This document shows, piece by piece, positions 3,760 through 51,290 of a stretch of DNA of 64,000 nt (position 1 is the stretch's first letter; each line of letters begins with the position of its first letter). A model generated the notes under the pieces. The model did no database searches. It was not told where the DNA came from and was given only the letters and a program-made list of their open reading frames with translations. The translations under genes and the position numbers were made by a program. Source of the stretch: Gordius sp. MW1 (lineage: Eukaryota > Nematomorpha > Gordioida > Gordea > Gordiidae); NCBI GenBank assembly GCA_964036665.1, contig OZ038533.1, positions 511,001-575,000 of the forward strand, written 5' to 3'.

Positions 3760-4440
3760 GTGTCTACATTAGATATTAGTCTAAATATAAATATTTACAA
3801 GTATGTTTTAAGTTGCTAATGATTATAAAAGAATAAATCATTGTCAAAAAAGGTTATTCTATATACAGTTGCATATGATTCACGGTGTCTACATATAACA
3901 GCTCAACACTTTAAGTTGCTAATGATTATAAATACACTAAAACATTGTCAAAGTAGGTGATTTAGAATTGGGTTCAAAATGTCACAGTCCGAAATGCCAC
4001 ACTGAATATCACGAAAAATTAAATCTCAAATGGAGAGGGAATTTGATGTGCATCTAAACCTAACCCAAACCCTAACCTAAAACGCTGACCTAAAACACTA
4101 CATAATGGAAATTATGCGCTTGCGCAATGAGTAATTGCGAATCTCACGATCGTGAGATTCAGTGGCTTAGTTGCATTTTGGACTGTGACATTTTGAAATG
4201 ATACCGATTCTATATACAGTTACATGTCTACATATAATAATAGCTTAATTTTAATTAATGATATGGATAGCAATAAAAAATCACCAGTACGCTTTATGTT
4301 GTTAATGATTATAAAAGACTAAAGCACTGTCAAAAAAGGTTATTCTATATACAGTTGCATATGATTCACCGTCTCTACATATAACAGCTGAACACTTTAA
4401 GTTGCTAATGATTATAAATACACTAAAACTTCATAACTGT
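3760..4440 (+). repeat. degenerate tandem array of about 100-bp units
   Basis: Units share AAGTTGCTAATGATTATAAA, then CATTGTCAAAAAAGGTTATT, then CTATATACAGTTGCATATGA, then ACATATAACAGCTGAACACT. Copies or partial copies start near 3810, 3911, 4210, 4297 and 4396. The array is split between 3967 and 4206 by a MITE; the unit sequence continues on both sides of it, which proves the array is older. There is no coding content. Confidence 0.7.
3968..4205 (+). mobile_element. MITE with GGTTCAAAATGTCAC-type inverted ends, copy 1
   Basis: A 238-bp element running from TTGGGTTCAAAATGTCAC to GTGACATTTTGAAATGATACC; the ends are inverted copies. It interrupts a tandem array and is flanked by GATTTAGAA and GATTCTATA, a decayed 9-bp target duplication. 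Inside are a telomere-like stretch (CCTAACCCAAACCCTAACCT near 4058) and a perfect 22-bp palindrome at 4139-4160 centred on CGATCG. A second copy in opposite orientation at 31382-31610 has a perfect 9-bp duplication. Nine-base duplications are typical of Mutator-type elements. Confidence 0.8.
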
Positions 4441-8703: not shown

Positions 8704-8861
8704 TTTGAGAAATTTATACGTCATTATGCATCATTGCATGAAAGTTAATTTACTTATTAAATATTTAATAAAAAGCCGAGTCGTCGAGTTAACTGAACAT
8801 GACATGGCAATTCATCTTAACAACTATCAGTCCACTTTTGATTATTAATTATAAAACTCAA

Positions 8862-9869
8862 GCCTTCGGCCCTCGTGGGAAGGGGGAGGTGGGAAGGGAA
8901 GGGGGAACTCTTCTATAATCTGTATAAAAGTAACATATTTGCTATGCAATTTATGGGCGAGAAAGGTGGGAAGGGGCTAGATTGCCTATAGGAGGGTATT
9001 AATGCAAAATAATTGGACTGACGGGCATAGGGTAAATATCAATGTTAACTAATTCCGAAGCGAAAAAAAAATTAAAATTCCGATTCACAATTTGGCCAAT
9101 GGTCATTTTTTCATTGGTCAGTAGCCAGGACACTGTTAAAAGTCATACTATCAAGGGTATTAACAAGAACAATATATTAATTTAATTTAAAAAAAAAATA
9201 AAAAATTTGCCCTCCCCGGATTCGAACCCACATCATTAGAGGCATAGGCTTTTGTAGGGGCGCAGGAACCCATATCAGTATAGGCATGGGCCCTTGTAGG
9301 GGAGGTCATAGGGTAATTGTAAATGTTAACCTAATATACCCAATTCAAAAACGAAAAAAAATTCGATTTATTTGGCCAATGGTTTTTTTTTTCATTGGTC
9401 AGTAGCCAGCGGACGGTCAAAAAGTCATATAATCAATGTTATTAACAAGAACAAAATATTAATTTAATTTAAAAAAAATAAAAATTTTGCCCTCTCCGGG
9501 ATTCGAACCCGTTGCCTCCTGTTTACAAGTCGTGCGCTATAACCACTCACACCCTGCTGGTATTAAAATCGTAGAAGTTTTTATGTTATTTATATAGATA
9601 ATGAAATAATAAAGTTGTGTTTTATGTTAAGAAAATCAATATATTTTATTGGTCAGTAGCCAGCGGACGGTGAAAAAGTCATATTATCAATGTTATTAAC
9701 AAGAACAAAATATTATTTTAATTAAAAAAAAATTAAAAAAATTCGTCCTCTCCGGGGATTGAACTCGAGACTTCAGGTCACAAAGCTGGCGCCAATAACT
9801 TGGTAAACAACGGACAACAAAAAACGAGCCCATAAATTGCATAGCAATTAATAATTCACTAGATCCAGC
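8862..9869 (+). repeat. unclassified interspersed repeat R, copy 1
   Basis: It opens with CAAGCCTTCGGCCCTCGTGGG and closes with CGAGCCCATAAATTGCATAG. A second copy in opposite orientation lies at 20556-21991 and interrupts a retrotransposon, so it is mobile or was. The core is about three 280-bp modules, each with GGCCAATGGTCATTTTTT, CATTGGTCAGTAGCCAG, and a block containing a tRNA-like B box (GGATTCGAACCC on this strand). No open frame has a recognisable protein. The tRNA-like blocks suggest a retroposon (SINE-like), but the size and modular structure are unusual for one. Confidence 0.55.
9490..9562 (-). pseudogene. tRNA-Thr(UGU)-like module
   Basis: On the minus strand the sequence reads like a tRNA body: an A-box-like GTGAGTGGTTATAGCGC, an anticodon region GACTTGTAAACAGGAGG with TGT in the loop position, and a perfect B box GGGTTCGAATCCC. 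The wording around the anticodon resembles tRNA-Thr(UGU). The 5' anticodon-stem strand and the acceptor stem do not pair, so it is a tRNA-derived promoter module rather than a tRNA gene. More degraded relatives with the B box lie near 9210-9235 and 9742-9775. Confidence 0.6.
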
Positions 9870-15683: not shown

Positions 15684-15688
15684 AGTTG

Positions 15689-15788
15689 TATACTAATTCA
15701 CATATGTCTTAAATCGGAAACAAAATTATATATTTTTATCCACATGGTATATACAAAACTGATATTACAAATTACGCTATATATCACA
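15689..15788 (-). repeat. gypsy 3' LTR (100 bp) with adjacent polypurine tract
   Basis: On the minus strand the LTR starts TGTGATATATAGCG and ends GAATTAGTATA. Immediately before it (higher coordinates) is AATAGGGAGAAA, the polypurine tract that primes plus-strand synthesis. It differs from the other LTR by one 6-bp gap, one 1-bp gap and two substitutions, so little time passed relative to the decay of the coding region, or the sample is too short to judge. Confidence 0.85.
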
Positions 15789-16079
15789 TTTCTCCCTATT
15801 TTAAATGTGAAATTCCTCGTAGAACCGTACAGGTGGTTTTGACGTTCTAGTCGATCATCTTAACGTAATCGGACTTGCAACTTTTTCAACATTCGTTTCC
15901 AGACTAGTATTCGGACTTGCAACTTTTTCTACATTCGGTTCCAGACTAGTATCGTTAGTTTCGACGAACTGGAATTGCATCCTAAATTTTAACTGATCCG
16001 CGTGTTTCCTTTTAATTTCTTTATTAGTGCGAACATTATATGAATATGGGCCTTTACGTTGTATGATAAATCCTTTGTA

Positions 16080-16745
16080 TCAGCCCGCTTTAATTTCATT
16101 CCGAATCCATACTGGATCTCCAACATTAAATTCCCTATAACATGCTTTTCGGTCATGGTAGCTCTTTTGTTTAGCTAATCTCTCCTTCCACTTTTCTTTC
16201 GGATCTGGTCGAATAAGGTCCAACGCTGTCCTTACTCTTCTTCCCAACAACAACTCCGCCAGAGCTTTACCCGTGGTTGCCTGAGGTGTATTCCTGTATG
16301 TCATAATTATTTGTTGAAGGCATAGTTCTTTCTCCCCCCCCCCTGATTTTCCTGCTGCTCAGTATCTTGATATTAGCGTTCAAATCATTCTCTCAGCTAA
16401 TCAATTTGTTTTGGGGTGGTATGGAGTGGATGTTACGTGCTTAATAATGTTGTTGTCACAAAATTTTGTGAATTCTTGACCGACAAATTGTGGTCCATTA
16501 TCTGATACTATTTGCAAGGGAATACCGAACCTGCAAAACCAATTTCGTAATTGCCTCACAATTTGTGGTCCTTTAATCGACGATAGTGTGGCTACCTCCA
16601 CCCATTTCGATAATGCATCAATTAAAACCAACCAATAATTTCCTTCGACAGGTCCGGCAATATCTATATGGACTCGATCCCAAGGACGGTCCGGTACGGT
16701 TTCAACCAATGAGAATGTGTAATTCACGTGGAGACGATTCTAACG
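16080..16745 (-). pseudogene. gypsy integrase, catalytic core and C-terminal part
   Basis: On the minus strand, RPWDRVHIDIAGP carries the first catalytic Asp, WVEVATLSSIKGPQIV follows, VSDNGPQFVG carries the second Asp, and STPYHPKTN leads to a frame-shifted LAERMI that would hold the catalytic Glu (near 16385). A C-run of about 10 (16336-16345) lies in the broken part. It resumes at 16304 with TYRNTPQATTGKALAELL and ends at KAG (stop at 16080). Further weak similarity (GPYSYNVRTNKEIKRKHADQ) continues past the stop to about 15975, so the true C-terminus was longer. The N-terminal zinc-binding part of the same protein lies 5.4 kb away at 22187-22567 because a retrotransposon inserted between them. 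Confidence 0.9.
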
Positions 16746-18334
16746 GAGACATCAAAAAAATCAATCCCATTTAAATATTCCTAGTCGCAAATATTCAAGC
16801 TTTAATTGTTAGGCTGAAACATGAGAGATCAAATATATCCCTTAATATCTATCCAATGATTCCGCGTTAAGACATACTACATTTTAAACATGAAGATTTA
16901 CACTTCACACATCTCTCCATTAATATTCAACATATATAACCAGCTTCAAAAAATTTCAAGATTTATTCAATCCTATATAACCAATACAAAGTTTATTTTT
17001 CATCAAATGATGTTGATAATATAAACTAAATTATGTATACTTAAAAGGCTCTGCACAATTTAGCCATTGTACAACTAAAATTACTTTAGTTTTGCATTAA
17101 TTCAAAAGAATAACATGCTTTAAATAACTTTTCAATATTTCCCAATTGATTTACATCACATTTATTTCTTCATCCTTATTCCTTAGCAAGAGTATTATAG
17201 TAGTATATTTAATTACAATATTTCTATACCAATTTTATCTCATGAAATCCCAATAAAACTTATAGAAAAACATCTGCTATTCAGACAATACCCAATTATA
17301 TATTCATACCAATAAACCCTGATCTTCCCTGGATAAATGGTTTAATCTTTTTAAAACAGATTATCAAAATTTGAGAAATATACAATTTTATGTTTCATAT
17401 TATCTTTCATTTATGCAATATTAAATTTTACTGTGCTCATTTATGTACTCCCTGATCTCACCTTAAAGGGTTAAATTTATATTGCATAACAACCTACTTT
17501 TGTTGTATACCGCTTAAATCTGAGAATAAACAGATTTATGTTATTACATAAAGGCATAATAACAATATAACACATACCCTGTGAATTTTAACCTTGCACG
17601 TTTGAAATTCTTATTAATCTTTATTTGTCACCTTACACCCATGGTAGCACTTAAATCTCTATGCTCTACATGTAAGAGAAACATTTGTTTAAACAAAACA
17701 ATTGTTTTGTCCCCCATGGGCCATTATCAGCTAAATGCCCTTCATCTGGTAAGCTGGCCCCCCCCCTATAATATGTCCTCCTACAGCACTAGAAATTGAA
17801 TCTAATAATAATATTGACATTATACCTAACTCTAGTACATTCTCAGCTACCCTTAATAATGTTTATTACAGTGATGAGCCTCCTGATTTAACATGGAGTA
17901 AAGTCCTTTTGGCACATGGCTTCACCCCCACAATTTCAAGAATTCCAAGAGGAGCACGACCTTGTTTGCAACAATTTTTAATAAACTTGCTAAATACTAT
18001 CATAAGTGACCCACACAACATTGTTGTATGGGAATAATTAATCAAATTCTCTTCTCACATTTTGGCCCCACCCAAATCTAAGGAAACAAACCTATCACAA
18101 AAAATTAAATTTTGAATTTTGACATTAATAATACACTTGCAGATTATACCCCCTATGAACGAAATTAATATCATCAACTCCAAAACAAACAGCAACTAGG
18201 ATATCCAGGAAAATTCACTCTTTTAATATAAAAGGAACCATGAGACTTTTAGAGGAGAACAATTCAATTGTAACCCCTAGTCAGGAATCATATGAACACC
18301 TCCTTGCCAAATACCCAAAACATTTGTCTCAGTA

Positions 18335-18500
18335 GGTTTTTTATTTTTTGAGACTTCATCTTCTCCTTTTTTTTTTCCTGAAGATGGACCATAAGTGTCC
18401 GAAATATTGCGTTCCATTTCCCTCTACCTACGCTATCAATCCAAATCCACCGTATTTATACAATAAAATTTATATAAACGGATTGAAAATTATTGACTAT
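18335..18500 (+). mobile_element. 166-bp retroposon-like insertion with perfect 13-bp duplication
   Basis: It is flanked by ATTTGTCTCAGTA on both sides (18322-18334 and 18501-18513), so its limits are exact. The insert starts with T-rich sequence and contains CCTGAAGATGGACCATAAGT followed by GTCCGAAATATTGCG. CTGAAGA, a short GGAC/GTCC helix and GAAA are the order of conserved parts of a hammerhead ribozyme core and resemble 3' regions of Penelope-like and some LINE/SINE elements. No protein is encoded. A 13-bp duplication is typical of target-primed reverse transcription. Confidence 0.75.
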
Positions 18501-20555
18501 ATTTGTCTCAGTATTGATTCCCCCTTGTGCCATCCAACTTAACCCTAGAATCCTCAGAAATTAGTGAAGCTATCCATTTGTTTCCAATTGACTCTGCTGC
18601 AGGTTTGGATGGTATCAAACCAATTTATCTTCAAGATCTTATTAAAATTGAAAATATCAATTCTTCTGCTCGTTGCACTAACTAAATTTTGCAATTTAAT
18701 TATTAATGGCAACATTCCTCAGGAAGTACGACCAATTTCAGGGCCAAGTTACTTGCTATTCAAAAACAGAACAAAACTATCGGCATAGTCTTCCGGAGAA
18801 TCATACCTAAAGTTATATGCAAAGCAATCAAGCATAATTTATCCCCATTTCTAATGCCTCATCAGCTAGGATTCGGTGTTAAAGGGGGTTGTGAAATAGC
18901 TACGCATGCTGCTAGATTGACCCTTGAAAATTTACCGCCTAGCAAGTCTTTTATAAAATTAGACTTTCAAAATGCCTTTAACAACCTAAATAGAAATTCC
19001 TTTATTAACACTTTCATCGATGCTTTTCCCCAATATGCCAACTATATTCTTTTAAGTTATGGCACCCCGTCTATTTTAAAATTTGGACAATTTTTCATTG
19101 ATTCAGCTGAGGTTCAACAGCCCCCTTAGCCCCCCCCCCCCCCCTTATTTTGTATGGCCATCAAACCATTAATAGATGAAATCAACGACAAATGCAATTT
19201 GAGGTTAAACGTATGGTATCTCGACGATGCCACCCTATCAGGCACCACGGAAGAGCTAATCAAAGCTCTTAACATAATTAATGAATACTACATAAAACTT
19301 AACCTATCATTAAACGCGACAAAATGCGAAATTTATTCTGACAGCACTACTGACATCCACCCATCCTTTGCATCTTTTCTACGCCTTGAGAAGGACGAGG
19401 TATTTTTACTAGGTTCTCCAATAGGCGGTCCTGAATGCTTAAGAAGTTATCTCGACAATAACCTTAAAAACTTAAAATGTAAAAATGAAATTTTTAAGCT
19501 TATGCCCGCCCATCACGCATTTTACATATTGAAAAACTGCTTTAATATAGCCAAAATATTATTTTGCTTCCGATCAACAAGCGCATTTTTGCATACACAT
19601 ATTTTACATAATTTCGAAACCCACATAAAGTCTGTCATCGAATCCACCCTGAACTTATCATTCGATACTAACACCTGGCTACAAGCCACATTACTAACAA
19701 AATCTGAGGGTCTGGGAATTCGTTCGCAAGCTCCTTATCCTTGGCCTCATTTATATCATCCCACTTATCCTCAAAATCCATCGTCGCCAAACTAATCTCA
19801 TACCCCCTTGATGAAACATTTATACAGGCCCTATCCCTTTGAAATTAAATGTTCTACCAGAAAGCTCACCACCACAAACACCAAATCAAAAGGATTGGGA
19901 TGCATGTTTGGTTTCGCGCTCCGTTGCTTATCTCCTTTCGAGCTGCGATACCAAACAACATTACAACCTTAGATCTTTGGTGTTTGATAAATCTGGACAT
20001 GAATGACTAGAAGCTTTTCCTAGCAGGTTTTCCAATATGATGTTAGAGGATTGCGAGCTATCCTACAATGTAGCACTACGCCTTGGAATAAAATACACAA
20101 AGGCATATGCCTGTAAAAATTGCAACCTGCCTGTGGATGAAGAAACACGCCACCCGTTACACTGTAGACTTAATAAATTTAGACGCTTGCGACACTCTAA
20201 AATTAATTCTATCCAGTCAGCCCTTAGAAAGGCCCAAATTCCATCCATACTTGAACCTTCAGATCCTGCCCTTGAAGGTCGAATGCGTCCTGACGGTTCA
20301 TCGCTAGTCCCATGGGAAAATGGTCTCCTTTTAAAGTGGGATTTTACATGCATAGACCTATTTGCCCCCTCGAATCTTAATTAAGACCCCATGGCCCTCG
20401 CCGAAGAACGCAAGCTCCAAAAATACAAGGCCCTTTTGGACTCTAGTATTTTTATCCCAATAGTTTCCGCCTGTTCAGGATCCTATGGAAAAATGGCATT
20501 GGCTTTATTCAAAGAAATAGGCAGGCGATCCCCTCCCTCCAAATATTCCCCCGCA

Positions 20556-21991
20556 TTTTAATTGCTATGCAATTTATGGGCTCGTTTTTTGGTTGTCCGT
20601 CCGTTTGTCCGTCCGTCCGTCTGTCCCTATCTATTTGCATTGGGTATATTAGGTTATCGATTTTTTAAATTAATGCATGAGAAAGAGGTGCCCCACCCCT
20701 CATCTATCTCCCTCGCTTTGGTATTTTTAAAATTAATGCATAAGAGGTGTCCCACCCCTCATCTCTATCTCCCTCGCTTTCGGGCGGGGTCGGGTTTTAA
20801 TTGCTATTTTAAATTAATGCATAAGTATTATATAATAAACATAAATAAAAGTTGTTTAATTTTAATTGCTATGCAATTTAACTAGTTTTTGGGTTAGAAT
20901 CCCGGAGTTTTTTTTGACTCTTATGATTGTTCTTGTTACTATCATTGATTATAAGACTTTTTGGCCGTCCGCTGGCTGCTGACCAATGAAAAAAATGACC
21001 ATTGGCCAAAATGTAAATCCGAGTTTATTTTTCGTTTTTTTTTGACTATTATGATTGTTTCTGTTACTATCATTGCTATTATGACTTTTTGGCCGTCCGC
21101 TGGCTCCTGACCGATGGAAAAAATGACCATTGGCCAAAATGTGAATCGAAATAATTTTTTTCGTTTTTTTTGACCATAATGATTGTTCCTGTTCCTACCA
21201 TTGCTATTATGACTTTTTGGCCGTCCGCTGGCTGCTGACCAATGGAATAAAATGACCATTGGCCAAAATGTGATTCGAAAACTTTTTTTTCGTTTTTTTT
21301 GACTATTATGAATTTATATCCACTTTTACCGTGTCCTGGCTGCTGACCAATTGAAAAAAATGACCATTGGCCAAAATGTGATTCGAAAATTTTTTTTTCG
21401 TTTTTTTTACTCTTATGAATTTATATCCACTTTTACCGTGTGCTGGCTGCTGACCAATGGAAAAAAATGACCATTGGCCAAAGTGAGCTTCAAAATTTTT
21501 TTTTCCGTTTTTTTGGCTATCATTGACTTATAGAATATCTGTTGGTACTGACCAATGGAGAAAAAATGACCATTGGACAAATTTTTGATTTTTTTAATTA
21601 AAAATTGCCCAAATTCAACAAAAAATTTCTCCCAACAATTCTGCAAATTCTTAACATTGTGATGTTTTATAATATAATGTTTGTTAGACCCATAATCACT
21701 AAAGGCCATAAAAACTAATGTATTAGGCAACTAGATGCAAACACTAAATCTAACCCTAACCCTTGCCTATATTACATTTTGCCTATAAATGGAAAATTTG
21801 TATAAATAATTAATTAATCATTAGGCATTTAATACACCCCTATAGGCATTCTCGCCCCTTCCCACCTTTCTCGCCCATAAATTGCATAGCAAATTTATAC
21901 GAAGTACAGATGAGTCGTCCCCCCTTCCCTTCCCCTCTTCCCTTCCCTTCTCCCCCTTCCCATCAGGGCCGAACGCCCGAGTTTTTTATTA
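20556..21991 (-). repeat. unclassified interspersed repeat R, copy 2, inside copy A
   Basis: It splits the copy A reading frame between PSKYSPAF and FLLKQSIAIL. It starts AATTGCTATGCAATTTATGG GCTCG and ends GGCCGAACGCCCGAG, the reverse of copy 1 at 8862-9869. The left part holds GTCC-type tetranucleotide repeats, and a second internal AATTGCTATGCAATTTA at 20863, which suggests one R nested in or fused to another. The centre is a tandem array of palindromic units. CTAACCCTAACCCTTGCC at 21739 recurs in the MITE at 51.5 kb. Non-coding. Confidence 0.65.
20915..21580 (+). repeat. tandem array of about 125-bp palindrome-bearing units
   Basis: About six units start near 20915, 21037, 21165, 21290, 21403 and 21505. 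Each carries TTTTTTGACTATTATGATTG, GCCGTCCGCTGGCTGCTGAC, then CCAATG-AAAAAAATGAC-CATTGG, a hairpin with an A-rich loop, then CAAAATGTGATTCG. The last unit is decayed. The periodic open frames on the minus strand come from the repeat and are not genes. Confidence 0.85.
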
Positions 21992-22186
21992 AAACAATCA
22001 ATAGCCATCTTAATTGCAAAATTTAATTTCAAATCTTTTTTGGATTCCTGGCCTCTTCTAAAAGAGGAAGATGAAATCATATTACTCATATAATTTTTTT
22101 TAATATCATTATTATATATTTGTACCATTTAATATTATGTTTAAATATATATCAATAAACAAATTTTATTTTTAAAAAAAAAATAA

Positions 22187-22567
22187 GGGAACTTGTTCGG
22201 CTTGTCGGCCTTGACAACCGTCACATTCCTTTACAAACAAATTAATAGTCTTGTCCATTTCCGGCCACCAAACATAATATCGGGCTAAATTAAGCATTCC
22301 TGTGATCCCGGGGTGTCCTTGGTGTAATATTTTTAAAACCAACTTTTGTAAGTTCCTCGGTATTATTAACCGATTGCCACGCAATAATAATCCATCTTCA
22401 AATGACAGTTCCTCCCTGTGATTGTAGTACGTTTTCATGTCAAGACGGCATTTTTTTAAATCCAACCGCCATTCTCGGTTGATCGCTAAAATTAATTCAC
22501 GACACAAAGGATCTTGTTTTATTGATGTTTTTAGCATTTCATAATCTAACTTTAATTCATCTAACAT
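22187..22567 (-). pseudogene. gypsy integrase N-terminal zinc-binding part
   Basis: Minus-strand frame with ELSFEDGLLLRGNRLIIP, the His pair in LHQGHPGITGMLNLARYYVW, and the Cys pair in ECDGCQGRQAEQ: the H2C2 finger that precedes the integrase core in gypsy elements. The frame runs into the inserted retrotransposon's poly(A) at 22184. On the other side the frame is contiguous, across the hAT insertion, with RNase H at 29193. It is intact within itself but severed at both ends. Confidence 0.9.
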
Positions 22568-22845
22568 GAGTAGTCCTACGCAGAGCTGTTAAGAACTAGT
22601 TCATTTTGAACTAGTTCATAGAACTAGTTCATTTTTTTCTGAACTTAGAACTGAACTAGTTACCTTCCCAAAAATTTGAACTGTGAACTTGAACTAGTTC
22701 ATTTTTTTAAGATTGAACTTGAACTTGAACTAGTTATTTTTTTTCTAATTCTGAACTTGAACTTGAACTATACAATGTAATTGAACCAGTTCATCACAAA
22801 TATATTATTTAAAATCAATTTATAAGCCGAGTGTATATGCGTCAA

Positions 22846-22848
<3 letters not shown>

Positions 22849-22885
<37 letters not shown>

Positions 22886-25800
22886 AATTGACATGCTTTA
22901 TTAAAAAAAAGTATTAAATATAAAGTGGATTTAATACAAAGATACAAGAACGAAAATATTTATAAAAAGAATGATTAAAACACATTATCCGTTTCTTCAT
23001 CTTTAAGAATGGGCATTGAATCCATCAAAGAATAAAAATTGGATTTAGCAATCGCAATGGCAATTGATTGTCTTAGTAAGAAACTATTCGATATTTTAGA
23101 AGGGGGCGAGCGTTTATTGAGTTCTTTAAAAAAATTTAATGCGCTCTTTCCGAACGTCCCTGAGCACGACGAGACGATAGGAATAAAAACGGAGGATTCC
23201 GATAAAGCTGAGTATTTTAAGGATTTGCGATGCTCTGCCGATCCTAGGGGGTCGTGAGTATCGTTGGAGGGGGCAAACAGGTCAATACAGGTGTAGTCCC
23301 ATTTTAAGAAAAGGCCTTTGTCCCATGGGATAAGTGATGAACCGTCAGGACGCATCCGCCCTTCGAGAGAGGGATCTGACGGTTCAAGGATGGAAGGAAC
23401 TTTTGCCCGTTTGAGGGCAGCTTGAAGCAGTGTATTTATTTTTTGGTGCCTACTATACCGGCTTTTGTTAAATTTACAATGCAGAGGGTGACGCGCTTCC
23501 TCATCTACAAGTGAATTACAAAGCCGGCAGGGGTATGGGGACGTGTATTTACAGCCCAAGCGGAGGGCTATGTTGAAGGACAGGGTAGGATTCTCTAAAA
23601 ACATTCCCGAAAACTTACTAGGGTAAGCTTCAAGCCATTCATGACCAGATTGGTCGAAAGCCAATGACCTAAGATTGCAATGCTGTTTGGCGTCGCATGT
23701 CGAGAGAAGGTAAGCAACGGACCGCGACACCAAACTTGCATCCAAATCTTTTTGGGCATATGATTGTGGAATGTCAACTCCTAAATTGACATTCTCATTC
23801 CATAGAGATAAGGCTTGATTGATAGAGGGGTTGAGTGAGAAAGGGACAAGGTCGTTAATAGATTGTTTAAAAGAAAGGGAGGAGGAAATAAAGGCGGCTA
23901 AGGAAATCGCGGTTGGGGAACGAATACCTAGACCGCCAGATTTTGTGGGAAGAGTGGCTTGAAGCCAAGTATTCGTGTTAAAAGAAATATTTAAAATTAA
24001 TTCAAGTGTGGATTTAAAAAAGTGTTCATAATTGTGTAAGACATCTTTAAATAAAAAAGCTTGCGTGGAGCGGAAGCAGAATAAAATTTTGCTAATGTTG
24101 TAATAATTTTTTATAATGTAAAAGGAATGATGAGAGGGCATAGATTTAAAAATGTCTAATTTGGTTTTTAGAGAAGAAAGGTTTTTGTCTAAAAAATTTT
24201 TGAGGCACTCAGGGCCCCCGATAGGTGCGCCTAAAACATACATATTGTCTTTATTAATTTTAGCAAAGTCAAAAAACTTTGGGTGAATATTATCCAAGTC
24301 AGAATATATTTCACTTTTAGAGGCATTTAAACATAAGTTTAATGTGGGGAAAAAAGCATGTATTACATCTAGTGCTTGGACTAGGTTGTCAGGGGTGCCA
24401 ACAAGAGTGGCGTCATCTAAATACCAGACATTGAGGGTGAGTTTACAATGTTTGTTAATTTCGTTAATTAGGTGATTTATAGCCAAGCAGAATAAAGGGG
24501 GGCCTAGGGGGTCACCTTGTTGGATCCCTTCTGCGGATTCAAGGAAGAATTCTCCAAATTTCAAAATCGAAGGACATCCGTAACTTGAAATGATGTAGTT
24601 GGTGTATTGGGGAAATATCTTGATAAAATCGTTAATGAAGGCTGTGCGGCGAATGCTATTGAAAGCATTTTTAAAATCCAGTTTTATAAAGGAGTCACCC
24701 AGAGGGAGGTGTTCCAGGGCTAAGCGTGCGGCATGGGTAGCTATCTCGCACCCTCCTTTGACCCCAAAGCCTAGTTGATGCGGAATTAAAGTAGGGGACA
24801 ATATGGGTTTGATCGCCGAACAAATTAATTTAGAAATAATTCTTCGAAAGACACCGCCGATAGCGATAGGCCTGGCTGAATTGTCGGCCTTTCTTATAGC
24901 TAAAAGCTTAGCTCCAAAAACTATGGGTGTTATTTCTTTAGGTATACTCCCATTGACTAAAAGGTTACAAAATTTGGTGAGTAAGTCTAGTAAGATGGAG
25001 GAGTTATTATTATCAATTGTTATAAGATCTTTTAAAAAAATTGGTTTTATGCCGTCGAGACCACCTGCAGAATCCATAGGAAAGGATAAGATGGCATCTC
25101 GAACGTCTGATGACTTAAAAGCAATATCTGAAGGTTGCGAGGGCGATAGGTAAGTTGACGATAGACTCTGGGGATGCTTGAGAACCATTTCTTCATATGA
25201 TTTTTGTGAAGGATTCAAAAATGAATTGTCTTCTTCAAGGTATCTCATTGCACTCTTGATGTTGAATGAGTGAATTTTCCTAGAGATTATATTCGCTTTT
25301 TGTTTGGGGGTTAATATTTGGGATTCCTTTCTATCCATGTTATATGCAGGAGGGCTATTTTGACTGTCAAAATTTAAAACTGATTGTTTAATATTATGAG
25401 TGATATTTGCTTCCTTGTCTTGAGGAATGGATAAAATGTAAAAAGAGAATTTAAATAATTTCTCCCAATAGGATAGTTCTGAGGGAGAGAAATAATATTG
25501 TTAAGTAAGTTTATTAAATATTGTTGCATGCATGTTCGGGCCCCCCTTGGAATTCTGGATATAGTTGGTGGGAATGCCTGAAATAAAAAGGCTCTGCTCC
25601 ATGTCATGTCCTTTTTTCATTTGTGGTATAGTAGGATTGATCAGGTATTAGATTAGGAATATCTGCACCAGAAGGGCTGAAATTAATATTATCATCCAAT
25701 ATTAAGGTAGATGGTGGACATATAGTGTTTGGGGGAGCGAGCTTACCTGAGGAGGGGCATTTATTTTTAACAGGGCCATGTTGTAAAAAACAATTCTTTT

Positions 25801-26695
25801 TGTTTAATGAGATATTTCTGGAACACAAGGGGCATAGAGCTTTTAAAAGGACCATTTAATATGTATTAGAATTTTCTCTCAGACAAAAAAAAATACATTC
25901 AGGTCTACACTGATGATTTATTGTAAGATTCTGAGTTATTAAGTATGTTGGAAAGATGGTAAGTAGTAAGGAATAATTAGTGATATCATTAGTAAAATTG
26001 CTTTAATTATGTGTGTAGATATATAATTTAGGGATAAAAGTACGTGTTGCTGAATTTGTAGAGAACCTTGTTTATTATAAACATGATTAATAATATACCC
26101 ATGGGTTATACTTTAATTATGGGTACAGGTAAAGAAAAAGTAATTGTAAATAAATATTTACTAAGAATAATACTATGTGAACTTTGGCCATAAGAATTAG
26201 AAGGTTGAAGTTTCTGGAATTGAACGTATAGGTGTGGGTGAATTTGTAATGAGGTGATATTTGTATGCACCAAATATAAGAAATATCCACCTTTAGATTT
26301 TGGCCAATTATAAAAGAATGTCTTTCCAAAAGAATAGTTAGGTGTCTGTCTTGGTTATTCCACAAACTTGGTTGTAAAGAAAGCATGAAACATTATATTA
26401 GATTAATCTCTCAGTTTCATGGCTGTGTAAAGTTTTGTAATTGTGAATATGTAAATTGCAAGAGATATAGAAATGTATAATAGTGTTTTAAATTCTCGCA
26501 TTGCTTCTGTATATGCTTCTATATTAGTCTTGCTAGGGAATAAGGATGAGGGGATAAATGTGATGTAGATAAGTTGGAAAATATTGAAAAGTTATATTGT
26601 TATTTAAAGCATATTAATCTTTAAAGTGGGCTAAGTTGTGCAGAGCTTTCAAGAATATATAATTTTGTATTGGTTATATTGATTTCAATTTGGCA
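22849..26695 (-). mobile_element. non-LTR retrotransposon copy B with 36-nt poly(A), inside the hAT element
   Basis: On the minus strand it ends with AATAAA (22897-22902) and a run of 36 A (22884-22849). It carries a nearly complete ORF and a 5' region alignable by eye with copy A. The 5' end is near 26695 (about 220 bp shorter than copy A), just left of the hAT transposase start. I could not find a target duplication. It is the best-preserved of four copies in the window. Confidence 0.88.
22975..25855 (-). pseudogene. non-LTR retrotransposon protein (zinc finger, RT, C-terminal nuclease-like domain)
   Basis: A 787-codon open frame (25338-22975) preceded by two overlapping shorter frames (25607-25374, 25855-25604) that hold the N-terminus, so two frameshifts remain. 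N-terminal finger: LCPLCSRNISLNKKN, then His and Cys. RT: FGVKGGCEIATHAARL, FIKLDFKNAFNSI, EGIQQGDPLGPPLFCL, NVWYLDDATLVG. After the thumb come CRLCNSLVDEEARHPLHC (a CCHC-like knuckle) and GRMRPDGSSLIPW with LKWDYTCIDLFAPS downstream. A single ORF with an N-terminal finger, RT, then a CCHC knuckle and a PD...D motif is the plan of R2/R4/NeSL-like elements with a restriction-like endonuclease. No apurinic endonuclease domain is visible. The class is inferred from layout only. Confidence 0.8.
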
Positions 26696-26735
26696 GAACA
26701 CACAGTAACCGCAAATTTTTGATTTTAAAAACACA

Positions 26736-28797
26736 ATGGATACCATTTCTGAAGTAGATAATAGGAACGAGGCAGCTCAATCTACCTTTTTACCTTGGCC
26801 TTCAATGGAAGAATACTTCAAATATGTATCTTCAGATAAAGATTCATTCAAAGTTAAGTGCAAACTATGCACTAAAGTTGTGGCGGCTTCAAGAACCTCA
26901 ACAGCCAATTTATGGAGACATATAAAGGTAATAAGAATAACGTATTATAATTTATAATATAAAATCTAGGTGTCTCACTATCAAAAACATGATGAGATTA
27001 AGAAGGCTGTCAAGAATAAGGCTGGAAAAAGTTGTGAAGCTAACAAAAAGTTAACACAGACCTTAATTGACAGGCCTTTAAACCAAAATTCCCCAATGGC
27101 CATTATCAAATATATAATCAATGGTAATCAACCATTTTCGCTATGTGATGATGAGCACTTCAATGAATTGTTGAGGGCTTTTAATCCAAAAGCAAAAACA
27201 ATTTGTAGGCAAACACTCACAGGGAAGGTGATGAAATTTGCTGCAAAGATGAAAGATACAGTTAGAACAAAGTTAATGGCACCCAAGTATGTATGTACAA
27301 CTGCAGACTGTTGGACAGCATTTAATAAGTACTTATAAATTTCTCTAAAATTGTCAATTTATTTTTTTTGTTAGGTCATTTATTGGGGTAACAGCTCATT
27401 GGATAGACGATGAGAGTCTTAAAAGAGTTGATGCAGTTCTAGCCTGCAAATGTTTAGAGGGGAGGCACTCTTTTGATGTTATATGCAAATCCCTTACTCA
27501 AATTTACAAAGAGTACCATATTCAAAACAAAAATATCTGTACAATTACTGACAACGGATCTAATTTCGTTAAAGCATTCAGGTACTATTTATATAATTCT
27601 TCTTTCCTAACTTTTATATAGGATTTTTAATGAAAATGATGAGATGCAGGAGGAAGTAGTATCTCTTAAGGATATACTTGATCGGGCTGGTTTAGAGGGA
27701 CATAATCAAAATGATTATGATTATCTACCCAAACATAAGAGATGTGCTTGTCACACCCTAAATCTGATTGCTACAAGTGATGTTAACAAGCTTTTGAAAA
27801 ACAATAATGCGTTTACTAAATTATATAATTCTTCATTCTGTAAGTGCCAGGCACTTTGGAACCTCAATAGCAGATCCACATTATCGGAACAAACCATACG
27901 TAACCGTTTTGGGTGTAATATACCCTACCCTGTAGTAACTAGATGGAATTCAACATTTGATTCCATCTCTGTTATAATAAAAATGATTCAAAATAAGCCT
28001 AGTGATTTTCATACTCTCTGTGATGAATTGAGGCTTGAAAGGCTTTCTTTGGAAGAATCAAATTTTTTACAGGAATATCACTTAGTGAGTCATTATTTTA
28101 AATTTATTTAATTTTTTTAAGGTAATGGAGCCACTTGCTAAGGCCCTTGAAATTTTGCAGGGGCAAACATACATGTATATGGCTTATTATACACCTACCA
28201 TAAGCCAGATTCAGTTATGTCTGCAGAATATGGTAAACTTAAAATGGGCTCAACCATTAAAAGATGCTATTTTGAAAGGAATAAACATCAGGTATCAAAT
28301 ATAAATGGATTCTAATATATAAATCATATGGTTTTAAGATTTCCTGATCTCTATGATGAGGAAAATATTATTGCAGCTGTCCTGCATCCAATTTTTAAGA
28401 CAGACTGGGCTTGGATCCGGTCACCAGAAAATGTGGAGGAAAGGTCCAGAATCTTAAAAGCAATAAATTTACTAGTGCCTCAAACAACTGAAAATATGGA
28501 GGTGCATGATACACAGAATGGTTTAGATTTTTTTGATATAATACGTGAGAATTCTAATAAAGAAACAATTGAAGACTATATTTCGATGTATTCGATGAAT
28601 TTCCCAATCTAAAGCAAATTTTTATAAAATTTAATGTTTGCCTCCCATCTAGTGCTCCAGTTGAAAGGCTTTTCAGTCTGGGAAAGCTTATATTTGGAGA
28701 TAAACGTACTTGTTTATTAAACGATAATTTTGAGAACAATATTTTATTAAAGTCCAATGGACATCTACTTTCACATGATTTTTATTGTAAATTATAA
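26736..28797 (+). pseudogene. hAT (ZBED-type) transposase, six exons, one frameshift
   Basis: Exons: 26736-26927, 26970-27328, 27375-27581, 27622-28084, 28122-28291, 28339-28797; introns are 37-47 nt, GT-AG, phases consistent. A BED finger lies at residues 20-70 (CKLC then RHIKVSH). Catalytic-domain marks: TTADCWTAFNKSF with the first Asp, TITDNGSNFVKAF with the second, and RWNSTFDS before the insertion domain. The C-terminal dimerisation motif is LPSSAPVERLFSLGKLIF (about 28640-28695). One indel near 28583 separates DYIS from DVFDEFPNLK; otherwise the frame is open, about 616 codons in all. It should bind and cut the CAGAGCTGTTAA ends of its own element. Whether the frameshift is real decides if it could be active. 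Confidence 0.9.
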
Positions 28798-29192
28798 TTG
28801 TATATTGTTTGTAATAAAGATTTTAAACATTGTATAGTTGATGATTTTGTTATATATGAATATTTCCTTAAATTAGATTTTCAAATATATAATAAACTAT
28901 GAAATTTATTTAAAATTTTGGATAGCTCTCAAAAAAACTGATTTTAATTTAGGAATCATTGCCTAAATTAAAACTTTATCATATTTAAAAAAATGAACTG
29001 AACTTTAACTAGTTATTTTTGTAAAATTGAACTATTAACTTGAACTAGTTACATTTTTTCCTACATGAACTTGAACTTGAACTAGTTACTTTTGAGAAAA
29101 AAAATGAACTTGAACTAATGATTTTTTCAAATTGAACTATGAACTTAAACTAGTTCGTAACATAGATGAACTTTAACAGCTCTGGTCCTACG

Positions 29193-30960
29193 TGATTGAT
29201 CTGATCCGTCTCAAGGTATTTTGGATCTGGCAGTCTCGACAATGCATCAGCGCATTGATTGTTCTTTCCTGATAGGTATTTTATGTCGTATTGATATCCA
29301 TTTAAAAATAAAGCCCACCGAATTAATCTATTATTGATCAATTTCGGTAAATCCCGATGATTTCCGAATAATCTTTCTAGAGGTTTGTGGTCCGTCATCA
29401 ATACAAATTTTCGACCACGTACGTATTGATCGAATTTTTGAACCCCGAACACAATGGCTCGCGCTTCCCGATCAATTGTAGAGTATCGTTTTTCGGACTC
29501 GCTTAACATCCTGGATGCGTACGCAATAGCTCTTTCGGACCCGTCTGCATATAAGTGTGATAGTACAGCACCTACACCAGTTTTAGAAGCATCTACCGCT
29601 AGGTATAACGGCAATGAGGTTGAATACGGTACCAATGTATTTGACGTTGAAAGCATCAGTTTAACATCGTTAAAAATCTTCTGCTCTTTAGTCGTCCATT
29701 TCCAACCTATTGATGAGCCCGTCAATGCATGCAAGGGTGCGCATTTTTTGTGTAGCATTGAGTTGAACCTCTCCTGATAATTAACTAGTCCTAAAAAGGA
29801 ACGTAGTTCTTTTTTGTTTTGTGGTTCTTTGAAAATAACAATGGCTTCCACTTGCTCTTGAGTCGGGTGGATCCCTGTTGCATCGATCACATGTCCCAAG
29901 TATTTAACTGAATTTTGGAAAAATTTAACCTTTTCCTTCTTTGCTTTTAGACCAGCGTCCTGTACCTTCTTTAGTACTTCGTTCAGATTTTGCAGGTGGT
30001 CATATTCATTTACTCCTGTAACTATGATATCGTCTAGAAGTACGCCGGTATGGGGAATCCCATCTAATTATTCCTCCATATAACGTTGGAATAAATTTGG
30101 TGCTATCGAAAGTCCAAATAGAAGACGTTTATATCGATACTAACCTATAATGTGTTGTGATAGTGAGATACTGTCGCGACTTTTCTTCGACCTTCATCTG
30201 AAGATAGGCATCACGTAAGTCAATTACTGTAAATTTCTGCCCTCCTGCGATCTTCAGAATTAAATCGTCAAATGTCGGAAGTAGAAGGTTGTTTAAAGTT
30301 AGGAAGGGATTGATAGTAACTCGAAAATTGCCGCAGATTCTAATGAAATTATTTGATTTTAATACATTTACTATTGAAGTTGCCCATGTTATTGGTGTTG
30401 CTGCAGGATCAACATGTTCAATTATATCTTCATCCAATAATCTTTTGATTTCCTCTTCAACTTTATTCCTTAAAGGAAAAGGAACTCTTCGTGCAGGAAA
30501 TGCTATGGCTTTGGCTTCTTCCTTTAAAAAAAGATTTACCTCATAGTCTTTAATACAGCCAGTGCCAGCACTGAACACATTGGTATACTTTTCAACCAAT
30601 TCCTCTTCTATGTTTTGAGGTTTTTCTTCTATAGCATTAATCTTAACTTGATGAGGAAGTTTTAGGTTAACAGCTTGCATCCAATATAGCCCAAAGATGG
30701 GGTCTTCTCTACAGTTGTTACAATAGCTGTTAATTTTAAAGTTTTATTGTTTAAATTGACATAGACTTGTGTTTCTCCACATATAGGAACTGGATTGTTT
30801 CCAAAAGCTTTTATCTTTGGGCATGGTGTTAATTAAGGTGTATTTAAAATGTTGTAGATATTCTTGTTAATTACAGATACTGATGAGCCAGTATCATATA
30901 ACATTTTGAAAATTTTCTGAATTATTCTTACATGGATGTATGGTTTAAGATATTTACATT
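29193..30960 (-). pseudogene. gypsy pol: protease, reverse transcriptase, RNase H
   Basis: Protease: LYDTGSSVSVI (about 30900-30870), followed by an in-frame stop. RT: PFPLRNKVEEEIKRLLDE, ATSIVNVLKSNNFIRICG, FTVIDLRDAYLQMKV (30680-30129), a frame break at about 30129, RYKRLLFGLSIAPNLFQRYM, another stop, then VLLDDIIV as catalytic box with Leu in place of the usual Tyr of YxDD. RNase H: AVDASKTGVGAVLS, DREARAIVFGVQKF, MTDHKPLERLF (29899-29193), ending ADALSRLPDP, the usual linker. The frame continues into the integrase finger on the far side of the hAT insertion. Non-functional. Confidence 0.92.
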
Positions 30961-30962
30961 AT

Positions 30963-32017
30963 TTAAGTCATAATTTTTCCAATTGTATTAATAATCTGGT
31001 TTACTTTGTTTGAGGTTTTGCACATTTTTGCAAAGTGTCCTCTATGATGACATATGGAACATTCTTTTAAAAATGCTGGACATTGCTTCATTGCATGTGA
31101 CTTACCACATCTATAGCAATTCCTTATGAATGATTGTTGATGTTCATCCTTTTTTGTAGCAAATTGTTTTATTGATTGCCTATGCTTTTGATTTGAGTAC
31201 ATTGGATTTGGTTTTTTATAATTTTGAATTTTGTTTAAATCTTGTGATGTGTTAACTTCTTTATTAGCCGTCTCCATTGATTCAGCTAAATTAAATATCA
31301 TTAAATGTTACCACATCACCCTCTTTCTTTAAAGCTTCAGGCCATCTGGTCCTGACATCAATTTTCAATGATATGTTTTGAGGTATCATTTCAAAATGTC
31401 ACATTTCAAAATGCAACTAAGCCACATCGTGAGATTCGCAATTACTCATTGCGCAAGCGCATAATTTCCATTGGGTAGTGTTTTAGGTCAGCGTTTTAGG
31501 TTAGGGTTTGGGTTAGGTTTAGATGCTCATCAAATTCCCTCCCCATTTGAGATTTAATTTTTCGTGATATTCGTGTGACATTTTGGACTGTGACATTTTG
31601 AACCCAAGACATGTTTTGATACCCATTTAGCAGTTGGTCACGGAGCCGTTCATCTAAATTAGATTTGAAGTCACAATTTTCTGCAGATGATTTTAATCTT
31701 GTTACATACTCAATCATAGTTTTATCATTTCTTTTAAGACATCTCATGAATTGTAATCTTGAGTGGAAAATTGTACTTCTTTGTGAAAATACCTTTTTAA
31801 TTAATATTAATAAGTCTTCATATTTCAACAAGGATGTATCTTCAGGGTATAGAAAGTTTATTAGAGTTTCAATGTTTTTCTGACCCATGTATCCTAATAT
31901 GATTTTGCATCGAGTAGTTTTAGGCACATTTTTAGCCTCAAAAATATTAGTGATAGTTATTATGTATATTGAAATATTATCACCTTGTTTAAAATTAGGT
32001 ATTCCCACAGACTCCAT
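30963..32017 (-). pseudogene. gypsy gag, interrupted by a MITE
   Basis: It starts MESVGIPNFKQGDN at 32017, only 24 nt after the primer-binding site, and runs through the capsid-like region (FLYPEDTSLLKYEDLL, QRSTIFHSRLQFMR) to LRDQLLNGYQNMS, where the 229-bp MITE (31382-31610) intervenes. Beyond it ISLKIDVRTRWPEALKKEGD continues to a stop; a frame change leads to FNLAESMETANKEVN and two zinc knuckles (CYRCGKSHAMKQC, a short variant, and CSICHHRGHFAKMC, canonical CX2CX4HX4C) that bind genomic RNA. Ends 30963. Confidence 0.88.
31382..31610 (-). mobile_element. MITE copy 2 in gypsy gag, perfect 9-bp duplication
   Basis: It is flanked by ATGTTTTGA on both sides (31373-31381 and 31611-31619). The plus-strand ends are GGTATCATTTCAAAATGTCAC and GTGACATTTTGAACCCAAG. 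Content matches copy 1 (3968-4205) in reverse, including the ATTGCGCAAGCGCATAATTT block and the telomere-like TTAGGTTAGGGTTTGGGTTA. The central palindrome of copy 1 is partly lost here. Confidence 0.88.
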
Positions 32018-32040
32018 TTTCAGAATAGGTTTTTTTTCTC

Positions 32041-32146
32041 GACCGTGCCAATATACTAATTCACATATGTCTTAAATCGGAAAACAAAATTATATATTTT
32101 TATCCACATTACAAAACTGATATTACAAATTATGCTATATATTACA
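32041..32146 (-). repeat. gypsy 5' LTR (95 bp) and primer-binding site
   Basis: LTR at 32052-32146, minus: TGTAATATATAGC to GAATTAGTATA. Next to it, 32051-32041 reads TTGGCACGGTC, the position of a tRNA primer-binding site (TGG opening complements the tRNA CCA end). LTRs near 100 bp are among the shortest for Ty3/gypsy. Confidence 0.8.
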
Positions 32147-32151
32147 AGTTG

Positions 32152-34415: not shown

Positions 34416-36040
34416 AATTTTTTTTAATAAAAATCTTTATTAGGTAAAATCTATATATATATGAAAAACATAAAACTTTATCAAAGAATAAAAAAAAGCG
34501 TGACTACTCTTCATCTTTATCGAGGGCCAGAGGCCAGGTGTCGGAAAATGCCTTATAATTGTATTTGGCTATTAAAATTTCTATTTTTTGGCGCAAGAGA
34601 AAACTTGCTAAGTATTTTCCTTCGGGAGATCTCTTTCCTATTAATTTAAAGAAGGCTAATGCCTGTTTGCCAAAATTGGCGGAACAGGAAGCCACGATAG
34701 GGATAAAATTTTTAGAAGGAATTATATCACGGTATTTATGAGTTTTGCGTGCTTCCGCTAGAGCTAATGGGTCAGCGTTATTGTTAGAGGGTGCAAATAC
34801 GTCGATGCAGGAAAAGTCCCAAGATAGGAACTTACCATCATCCCATGGAATTGTGGATGTTCCATCGGGGCGCATTCTACCCTCAAGAGTGGGTTCTGAT
34901 GGTTCGAGAATAGAAGGGAAGCCGGCTTTTAGTAAAGCGGTTTGAATCAAAAGGTTGATCTTTTGATGGCGAATGAAACGGAATTTGTTAAGTTTACAAT
35001 GTAAGGGGTGATGGGCCCAAACATCAATTTGTTTCTTACAATTTTTACAAGTCAATTGCTTGCAAATTGGGATCCCCAGTCTCAAGGCGATCGCGTAAGT
35101 AATTTCGGGGTTTGAGAGTAAGAGCCCAGAGAACTTGCTTGGAATGCATTCCAGCAATTCGTGACCAGAGTCAGTCGTTAGTGACCTGAGATTGAAATGC
35201 TGTACGGCGTCACAACTCGAAAGTAGGTAAGCGACGGAGCGTGACACTATACAAGCATCCCAATCTCGTTGTTTGACTGAATTTGGAATAATGGTTTCTG
35301 GCATTACATTTTCGAGCCATGATGTTAAAGCTGTTTGCGGTAAAAAATCTTCTGTTTGGGTGGTCAATTTAAAAACGTGATCTTTAACTAGATTGTAAGA
35401 CGAGAGAAAGGCTACTAGGCTAATGGTCAAAGGGGACCTTATTCCTAATCCTCCAAATTTAGTAAGCGTGATGTATTGGCAACAATTTTAAAAGTTCCAT
35501 TTTTGAGGCCAAAAAAGCTAAATGTTGATTTAAAAAGTCCTGCAAGCACGAAGATCCACCTATGGGTGAACCGAGCATAGAAAGTTTTTCCTTAGCCACG
35601 GTGGGATAAGGTTTAAAAATCGAATATTGGTCGCAAGCAGGTGGTTGTAAAATTTCGCATTTGGCATCGTTGAGCGATAGATTTAAAGGTACACAATAGT
35701 CTTTAATGATGGAGATGGCTTTGGCGACCTGATCATAGCTGCCCGCGAAAGTCTCATCATCTAGGTACCATACATGTAATGATAAATCGCACTGATCCTT
35801 AATTTGGTTAATAAGTTTCTTTACGCAACAAAATAATGGTGGCTCAAGGGGATCACCTTGTTGAAGGCCCTCAGCAGATTTAATTAAGGAGGCAAAATTT
35901 AAACGTAACTTTGTAAGATATAATTTGCGTATTGGGGAAACTCTTCTAAAAAATTTCCTTAAAAAAGTTTCTATTAAGTTGATTGAAGGCATTTGAGATA
36001 TCCAGTTTCACTAGACAGTGGTCGGGATGAAGGTTTTGTA
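34416..36040 (-). pseudogene. non-LTR retrotransposon copy C, 5'-truncated
   Basis: Two frames (35992-35459 and 35430-34504) carry AEGLQQGDPLEPPLFC, LHVWYLDDETFAGSY, MLGSPIGGSSCLQDF, then SVAYLLSSCDAVQHFNLRSL, CKNCKKQIDVWAHHPLHCK, LEGRMRPDGTSTIPWDDGK and FIPIVASCSANFGKQALAF. The copy begins inside the RT domain (SLVKLDIS-like, about 36040) and ends at AATAAAGATTTTTATT plus a short A run near 34416. The thumb region between 35459 and 35430 is deleted. It belongs to a subfamily distinct from copies A and B. Confidence 0.85.
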
Positions 36041-48054: not shown

Positions 48055-48480
48055 TTTTCATATCTTTAAAAAAGAATAAGATATGAATAAAAATGATTTG
48101 AAAAAGGATAGATATATATGTGGAGATATATTGGGAGACGGCCGGGCCGCGTAAACGCTCACGCGCGTACGCGAAAATATTTCTTAATTGTTTTTATAAC
48201 ATGGCATTAATATAATCAAAACCAAGAAAAAATTATAATGAATCAATCTCCTTATCACAAATCACTCATCCGTCTTCGTGTTGATAAACAATCATATATG
48301 GGGAGAAATAAATAACTCAAACGTATAAGCGCGTCGGGGGGGGGGGGGGAATAACATACGCGTACTAGAAATTAAATGTAAAAAAATAGTGGTGGAAATA
48401 CAGATGTTGTACGACGCGGCGCGTGAGATCAAAAGGATCTTGTAATGGGGGGGGGGGGGGGGAAATCTCCGGATACAACA
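48055..48480 (-). repeat. 3' LTR of the TRIM-like element
   Basis: 426 bp; contains GC-rich GGCCGGGCCGCGTAAACGC and CACGCGCGTACGCG, and two G runs of about 12-14. Preceded on its own strand by the polypurine tract. Confidence 0.75.
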
Positions 48481-49213: not shown

Positions 49214-49633
49214 TTTTCATATCTTTAGAAAAGAATAAGATATGAATAAAAATGATTTGAAAAAGGATAGATATATATGTGGAGATATATTGGGAGACGG
49301 CCGGGCCGCGTAAACGCTCACGCGCGTACGCGAAAATATTTCTTAATTGTTTTTATAACATGGCATTAATATAATCAAAACCAAGAAAAAATTATAATGA
49401 ATCAATCTCCTTATCACAAATCACTCATCCGTCTTCGTGTTGATAAACAATCATATATGGGGAGAAATAAATAACTCAAACGTATAAGCGCGTCGGGGGG
49501 GGGGGGGAACAACATACGCGTATTAGAAATTAAATGTAAAAGAATAGTGGTGGAAATACAGATGTTGTACGACGCGGCGCGTAAGATCAAATCTTGTAAT
49601 GGGGGGGGGGGGGGGAAATCTCCGGATACAACA
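49214..49633 (-). repeat. 5' LTR of the TRIM-like element
   Basis: 420 bp, nearly identical to 48055-48480; differences include AAAGGATC versus AAATC and a few substitutions and G-run lengths. Confidence 0.75.
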
Positions 49634-50042: not shown

Positions 50043-51290
50043 CATAGTTGTTAAATTGCTAAGTAGCTTCAACAAAAAACGCGAGCACGAACAGCTGGGT
50101 AATATGCTAGTTTAACACAATGAGTGCTAGCTGCTCGGTGCAATAGTTTTGACAGTAGCACGTAAAAATGCTCGTGAGGTTAGTCGAAGCAGCCAAATCT
50201 GTTAAAAAATTTAGGAGGAGCTCGAGCAGTAAATTCGAGCAGATAGTAGATTGAATTTCTATCTGTTAAAATTACAATTTTAATCATATTATATATCATA
50301 AATAAATTAAGAACTTTGCCCCCCCCCTTATTTTTTACCCTCTTTCTTACCAGATGGGAGGGGGGTGTTTTGCCCCCCCCCCTATTTTTTACCCTCTTTC
50401 TCACTAGAGGGGGGGGGGGGCGTTTTGCCCCCCTCCCTATTTTTTATCCTCTTTCTGTCCAGAGGGAAGATGGAGGGGGGGGGGGGTGTTTTGCCCCCCT
50501 TATTTTTTTATCTGTCTTTTTCACTGGTGCCCCCCCCCTGGTAAAAAAAGAGTAAAAAATAAGGTTGGGAGCAAACCCCCCCCCCCCCCTTTGGTAAGAA
50601 AGAGCATAAAAAATAGGGGGGGGGTGCAAAAAGAAGATAAAAAATAAGGGGGGGGCAAAACACCCCCCCCCATCTCCACTCTGATTTGAAAGAGAGTAAA
50701 AAATAAGAGAGGGGGGGGGGGGCAAAACACCTAACCCCCCCCCCCCCCTCCCCCCTGGTGAGAAAGAGGATAAAAAATACCATCTCCCCTCTGGTTCGAA
50801 AGAGGATAAAAAATAGGGGGGGGGGGCAAAACACCCCCCCCCCCCCCATCTCCCCTCTGGTGAGAAAGAGGATAAAAAATAAGGGGGGCAAAACACCCCC
50901 CCCCCCCCCTTTGGTAAGAAAGAGGGTAAAAAATAAGGGGGGGGGGCAAAACACCCCCCTCCCATCTGGTAAGAAAGAGGGTAAAAAATAAGGGGGGGGG
51001 GCAAAGTTCTTAATTTATTTATGATATATAATATAATTAAAATTGTAATTTTAACAGATAGCAATTCAATCTACTATCTGCTCAAATTTACTGCTCGAGC
51101 TCCTCCTAAATTTTTTAACAGATTTGGCTGCTTCGACTAACCTCACGAGCATTTTTACGTGCTACTGTCAAAACTATTGCACCGAGCAGCTAGCACTCAT
51201 TGTGTTAAACTAGCATATTACCCAGCTACTGTTCGTGCTCGAGCATAGCATATAGTTAGCATTGCTAAAGTTAGCAATTTAACAACTCTA
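50043..51290. mobile_element. hAT-type foldback element with G/C-run core
   Basis: A perfect 8-bp duplication GGCAGGAC (50035-50042 and 51291-51298) bounds the element. Ends CATAGTTGTTAAATTGC and GCAATTTAACAACTCTA begin long, nearly identical inverted arms of about 250 bp (to about 50310 and from about 51000), including GTTTAACACAATGAGTGC and the reverse of it. The centre is about ten units of 55-75 bp, each with AAGAAAGAGGGTAAAAAATA and long G and C runs. The TIR resembles that of the 22581-29184 hAT (CAGAGCTGTTAA), so that transposase family may mobilise it. The long open frames in the core are repeat artefacts. Confidence 0.88.

Follow-up and report, generated by a model that had tools for sequence, protein, structure and literature searches.

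Mobile elements that lie one inside another raise the question of whether their nesting is genuine, in what order they arrived and what each of them did to the DNA that received it. The question is posed by positions 15684..32151 of a 64-kb stretch of the genome of the nematomorph Gordius sp. MW1 (the window, C7:511001-575000 in an assembly of 211.8 Mb in 12 contigs), which an original prediction, made from the letters alone, had read as seven insertions. Here, the elements of the window were compared with their other genomic copies (the L-numbered loci below), the separate pieces of the window being aligned without rejoining the gypsy element. The nest is real. A Ty3/gypsy copy on the minus strand, bounded by AGTTG at 15684-15688 and 32147-32151, landed in single-copy DNA; a long interspersed nuclear element (LINE A), a hAT transposon and a 229-bp miniature inverted-repeat transposable element (MITE) entered the gypsy separately, a 166-bp Penelope-like fragment and a repeat termed R entered LINE A, and a second LINE (LINE B) entered the hAT. 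All six inner insertions are supported, and the arrangement, ordinary for a repeat-rich genome, is unusually well proven. The lead worth following from it is the spectrum of target changes that such LINEs leave behind, and we regard the whole account, a nest built stepwise together with R2-like LINEs that insert with a second-strand break at no fixed distance, as quite probable.

The nest is supported by the state of the corresponding sites in sibling copies, of which the seven best per family were read (for gypsy, seven out of 39 listed besides the window copy, after scoring of 40 among 288 candidates). The site of LINE A (16700..22183, plus strand, including its two inserts) is unoccupied in 7/7 gypsy siblings (L010-L016), and the same seven lack the hAT (22581..29184, plus strand, including LINE B), whose duplication GTCCTACG is exact at 22573-22580 and 29185-29192, occurs 2 times in the window and is matched at the unoccupied site by 8/8 bases in six siblings and 7/8 in L014. 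The MITE (31382..31610) lies between exact copies of ATGTTTTGA (31373-31381 and 31611-31619; 4 occurrences in the window), and its site is unoccupied in all five gypsy siblings readable there, out of seven, one of the five having the complete string and the other four a version that differs by one base. LINE B (22849..26697, minus strand) is absent from its site in the seven hAT siblings (L026-L032). As for LINE A, whose seven siblings are L034-L040, the 166-bp piece (18335..18500, plus strand), flanked by the 13-bp duplication ATTTGTCTCAGTA (exact at 18322-18334 and 18501-18513; 2 occurrences in the window), is missing from 7/7 (in one of them the 13-bp string is altered by one base), and repeat R (about 20564..21982) from 6/6 readable of 7. 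Since all six inner sites are unoccupied in siblings, the inner junctions are not assembly joins, and the inserts most likely arrived singly at this locus, after their hosts. Junctions and unoccupied siblings thus bear out the seven insertions and their nesting, the four duplications first proposed for them (AGTTG among these) are exact, and continuity at each inner site, originally sought by joining gypsy pieces, is shown by the unoccupied copies without such joining. In L014, a different, GC-rich insert of ~200 bp adjoins the place where LINE A entered the window gypsy.

It is very unlikely that some inserts were already present in the source copy of the gypsy, the hAT or LINE A and came along with it: the reading of just seven siblings per family leaves this some room, but all six sites are free of the insert in every readable sibling. 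A nest created by the assembly out of unrelated repeats has a negligible chance, for although every part is a high-copy repeat and the comparison rests on an assembly without reads, at each of the six inner sites the ends and duplications of the elements agree with siblings that are independent, and the flanks of the nest, one repeat-like part excepted, are single-copy.

The outer host can be classified from its sequence as a long terminal repeat (LTR) retrotransposon of the Ty3/gypsy type, with which it shares domains, LTRs and a 5-bp duplication, AGTTG being exact to the base at both ends, and from which it differs by its short LTRs (95-100 bp). The LTRs, placed by their alignment and by sibling loci, lie on the minus strand at 15689..15788 (100 bp, the 3' LTR in the sense of the element) and 32052..32146 (95 bp, the 5' LTR) and, in an alignment of 101 columns, differ by 2 substitutions, one 1-bp gap and one 6-bp gap. 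TATACTA starts at least one LTR in each of the seven sibling loci, as in the window copy, and a likely tRNA primer site can be read on the minus strand beside the 5' LTR (TGGCACGGTCGAG, 32038..32050). A minus-strand frame over gag (31496..32071) gave a PNMA-like match under the cut-off (20.7 vs 25 bits) and holds two CCHC-like strings seen by eye, where Pfam reported no CCHC family. Further along the minus strand, a frame with the end of the reverse transcriptase (RT) and RNase H (30067-29150; PF17917 at E 4.2e-32, PF17919 and PF00078; Ty3 chains at E 2.7e-34) precedes one with the integrase zinc-binding domain (22588-22172; PF17921 at E 5.5e-16), which extends into neighbouring elements at both ends; RT thus comes before integrase. 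In the assembly search, the left flank of the gypsy is single-copy and so is the right one, except for a repeat-like part of ~180 bp and a weak 190-bp match. Two observations tell against the outer insertion: no empty site for it was found in the assembly, and of the two sibling loci with both outer flanks, L012 has no 5-bp duplication, while in L015 4/5 bases match. The proposed search for empty sites succeeded at the six inner sites and not at the outer one.

With regard to the order of arrival, nesting is compatible with 120 of 5040 linear insertion orders and therefore the order is not readable from the duplications alone, as had been claimed. Relative age was gauged from singleton (private) substitutions, the counts being converted from percentages and column counts of the sibling alignments: gypsy 32/2440 (three pieces), LINE A 50/2989 (two pieces), hAT 2/2242 and LINE B 0/1547. 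The rates of gypsy (Fisher 2e-7) and LINE A (Fisher 2e-10) are above that of hAT; the same test separates neither gypsy from LINE A (0.31), the latter having a rate nominally higher than its older host, within error, nor hAT from LINE B (0.52). By these private substitutions gypsy and LINE A count as old insertions, hAT and LINE B as recent ones. In the 166-bp piece, one change in 162 columns is private, and the MITE and R, with two siblings each, are poorly dated.

LINE A and LINE B are two families. That they are copies of one family can be discounted, for although they are collinear and homologous over most of their length, their nucleotide identity is ~64% (over 2028 and 686 columns; shorter blocks reach 71% and 67%), against a substitution divergence of siblings of 2.1-3.8% from A and 0.06-0.32% from B, each LINE having its own close siblings, and a third remnant (34507-35487) has 57% protein identity to B. 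There is therefore no relative clock for one family, as had been inferred from the two copies; this was the one wrong claim of the original prediction, and the readable order its one overstatement. The second non-LTR element, in the hAT, was correctly recognised, with its poly(A) of 36 nt (poly(T) at 22849-22884, a few letters possibly belonging to the target). The related third LINE remnant extends over 34507-36007 on the minus strand, and its frame at 35462-36007 gave an RVT_1 match that just reaches the cut-off.

Both LINEs encode an R2-like protein with RT, a CCHC motif and a predicted restriction-like endonuclease fold, as established for LINE B, whose open reading frame (ORF) of 841 aa (22975..25500, minus strand) was analysed by domain and fold searches. 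The RT is of LINE type (PF00078, E 3.4e-22), and the C-terminal part combines the CCHC (C658 C661 H671 C675) with an endonuclease that the model folds as in R2. With the model of the whole LINE protein, the top seven Foldseek matches are R2 proteins and the top Z (27.0) in a fold search belongs to human LINE-1 ORF2p; the weaker matches, long series of which are to polymerases and endonucleases of viruses, were put down to folds held in common. The nearest named relatives are proteins of Gordionus, another horsehair worm (34-41% identity). The fixed 28S ribosomal DNA (rDNA) site of R2 proper is not seen: A lies in a gypsy and B in a hAT, and copies have differing 3' flanks, a dispersal also known for BLAG and HERO. 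With R2-like LINEs of the HERO clade, as described in PMC4640811, A and B share RT, CCHC, restriction-like endonuclease and 5' truncation, and they may belong to that or another clade of the group.

For the A and B families, it is observed directly that insertion sites are dispersed, that copies carry poly(A) ends and 5' truncations, and that the change to the target ranges from deletion up to +741 bp. In the window, LINE A replaced ~3-10 bp of gypsy (the edge is blurred by poly(A)) and LINE B ~31 bp of hAT, and neither made a duplication. Elsewhere, flanks were compared in 27 copies, L108, which has no left flank, being dropped (n=26); also outside this sample are L006 (a near-identical neighbour of L004), L005 and L008, whose 5' flanks measure 0 and 123 bp, and LINE A and LINE B of the window themselves. 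Junction-exact duplications are present in 6/26: 14 bp in L058, 34 in L004, 44 in L053, 186 in L068, 243 in L061 and ~741 in L062. When flanks from different copies were paired as a control (L108 included), the same threshold was reached in 1/702 pairs, by a 12-bp match. The long repeats differ little between their two copies, with 0/186 substitutions in L068, 2/243 in L061 and 2/720 in L062, and 5' truncation is seen in the LINE copy of each of the five long or medium cases that were inspected. As regards the putative nick, the base following the poly(A) is T in 20/27 copies, and the sequence reads ACAAA|TTAA in L061 and L062 and CAAA|TTG for LINE B in the hAT; in L068, GCGC follows the nick.

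These junctions suggest a mechanism in which the R2-like enzyme would prime at dispersed A|T-rich nicks and insertion would proceed, most likely, by target-primed reverse transcription, the second-strand break being loosely placed and not tied to the first nick. An upstream second break may have caused the small deletions of A and B in the window, and a downstream one may have caused the duplications of 14 to ~741 bp in other copies. A review (PMC2881922) already relates downstream second breaks to duplications and upstream ones to deletions, and describes second-strand cutting and joining at LINE insertion as not entirely clear; the new element relative to that framework is the breadth of the target changes. 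A more specific claim, that a dispersed R2-like LINE lineage comprising two families ~64% identical has uncoupled second-strand breakage from first-strand nicking, with target changes of ~-31 to +741 bp per insertion, is in our judgement evenly balanced between true and false. If true, the spread of such a LINE would routinely involve the duplication of host DNA in stretches of up to most of a kilobase.

The live rival to a staggered second nick is repair: break repair, or copying where an unrelated second break had occurred (on a sister chromatid, for instance), may have produced the long duplications. This has a real, though smaller than even, chance of being right; the lengths, from 14 to ~741 bp, have no fixed value and the LINE copies inspected, five with long or medium duplications, all lack their 5' part, and no observation here distinguishes break repair from a loosely placed second nick. 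That the long repeats are instead older tandem duplications which the LINE happened to hit is improbable. In its favour, the flank repeat of L057 is offset and diverged, L105 sits in a tandem array and the repeats of L062 differ from each other by three gaps; yet in six copies the repeat ends coincide with both LINE ends, against one of the 702 control pairs, and the copies of a repeat differ from each other by as few substitutions as the members of the LINE family do. Moreover, L107, which is homologous to the L062 target and unoccupied, has a single 741-bp segment between the same flanks, a check that covers L062 alone and runs through a homologous repeat copy, and on this ground an origin in a tandem array was rejected for L062. 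Several facts nonetheless count against duplication by a loosely placed second break: 20/26 copies have no junction-exact duplication, among them L102, L103 and L105, whose left flanks are shorter than 300 bp; the gaps in the L062 repeats amount to 27 letters; and the repeat flanking L057 (~440 bp, 17/439 substitutions), which starts 36 bp from the 3' junction and was not counted, is not explained by the simple model.

Large duplications have been seen at L1 insertions in cultured cells. The R9 LINE of bdelloid rotifers reportedly makes, according to the title of its description, an exceptionally long target duplication, in which it resembles the relatives of A and B; with a reported 126 bp at a fixed rDNA site, however, it differs from their variable lengths of up to ~741 bp at dispersed sites. 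Our literature search of open-licence papers found no LINE in nature whose duplications reach several hundred bp. The small target deletions of A and B in the window have their counterpart in R2 (PMC7650587, PMC2718515), for which small deletions with few duplications are reported, R1 making mostly 14 bp duplications (PMC2718515); relatives of A and B differ from what is reported for both in adding duplications of 14 to ~741 bp beside deletions. Young LINE copies with such duplications, next to copies with deletions, offer a natural data set for the second-strand step.

The 166-bp piece in LINE A is the start of a Penelope-like element and ends inside the ORF of that element, 117 nt past the ATG at 18384. 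The sibling L023 extends it into a frame of 440 aa, on which Pfam gave no match and which is read as Penelope-like because of its relatives: 209 were found at E <= 0.001, and among the 120 listed most have RVT_1 or PF28514, which points to a Penelope-type RT. The next frame of L023 matches RVT_1 below the cut-off (E 9.1e-5). Among the same 120, 2 carry PF01541 (GIY-YIG) and 2 more are named GIY-YIG, the L023 sequence stopping ahead of the endonuclease. In 6/8 loci examined the homology breaks off at the same point, give or take a few bases, which in the window copy lies 117 nt past the ATG; it continues in L023 and L024. Internal initiation has been reported for PAc, a Penelope-like element of Anolis, whose insertions likewise end just inside the start of the ORF (PMC11167929), and the shared stop point of the 166-bp family resembles it; these pieces are natural insertions ending inside the ORF start, in agreement with that report. 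Partial inverted copies beside others, together with GIY-YIG relatives, are a further likeness to PAc and Penelope-like elements in the same report; the family differs from the latter in having no Rfam hammerhead match, and the locus read stops before the endonuclease end. Rfam gave no hammerhead ribozyme at gathering level in the window and only unrelated weak matches at 18280-18540, and a look-alike core was noted by eye only. Close to each of the Penelope-like copies L018, L019, L021 and L022, part of the same sequence recurs in inverted orientation.

The hAT, with ends CAGAGCTGTTAA and TTAACAGCTCTG, agrees with hAT transposons in its 8-bp duplication, its CAGAGCTGTTAA ends and a putative C-terminal dimerisation motif, with no notable difference; the motif matches PF05699 at E 3.3e-4 and 20.8 bits, under the cut-off of 21.4, and 6/7 siblings also have the 8-bp duplication, which is absent in L029. 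The 9-bp duplication expected of a Mutator-type MITE is found in the window MITE and in L047, while L046 has 8 bp in a T-run. Repeat R contains internal tandem units of ~107-128 bp, with an 8-bp T-rich overlap at its ends, and ends within T-rich DNA; a Helitron or an element with terminal inverted repeats are candidate identities only. The window holds a further copy of the MITE (~92% identical, 3968-4205) and parts of R (~8838-9855), on the minus strand.

Outside the nest, a plus-strand frame at 42093-42581 matches the Pif1 2B domain (E 1.1e-9) and another at 53203-53595 has a serpin match below the cut-off (E 6.7e-4). A direct repeat of 294 bp, 100% identical, lies at 48055-48348 and 49214-49507, 1159 bp apart, and at 50093-51227 a 244-bp inverted repeat, 98% complementary, flanks tandem units rich in poly(C)/poly(G).
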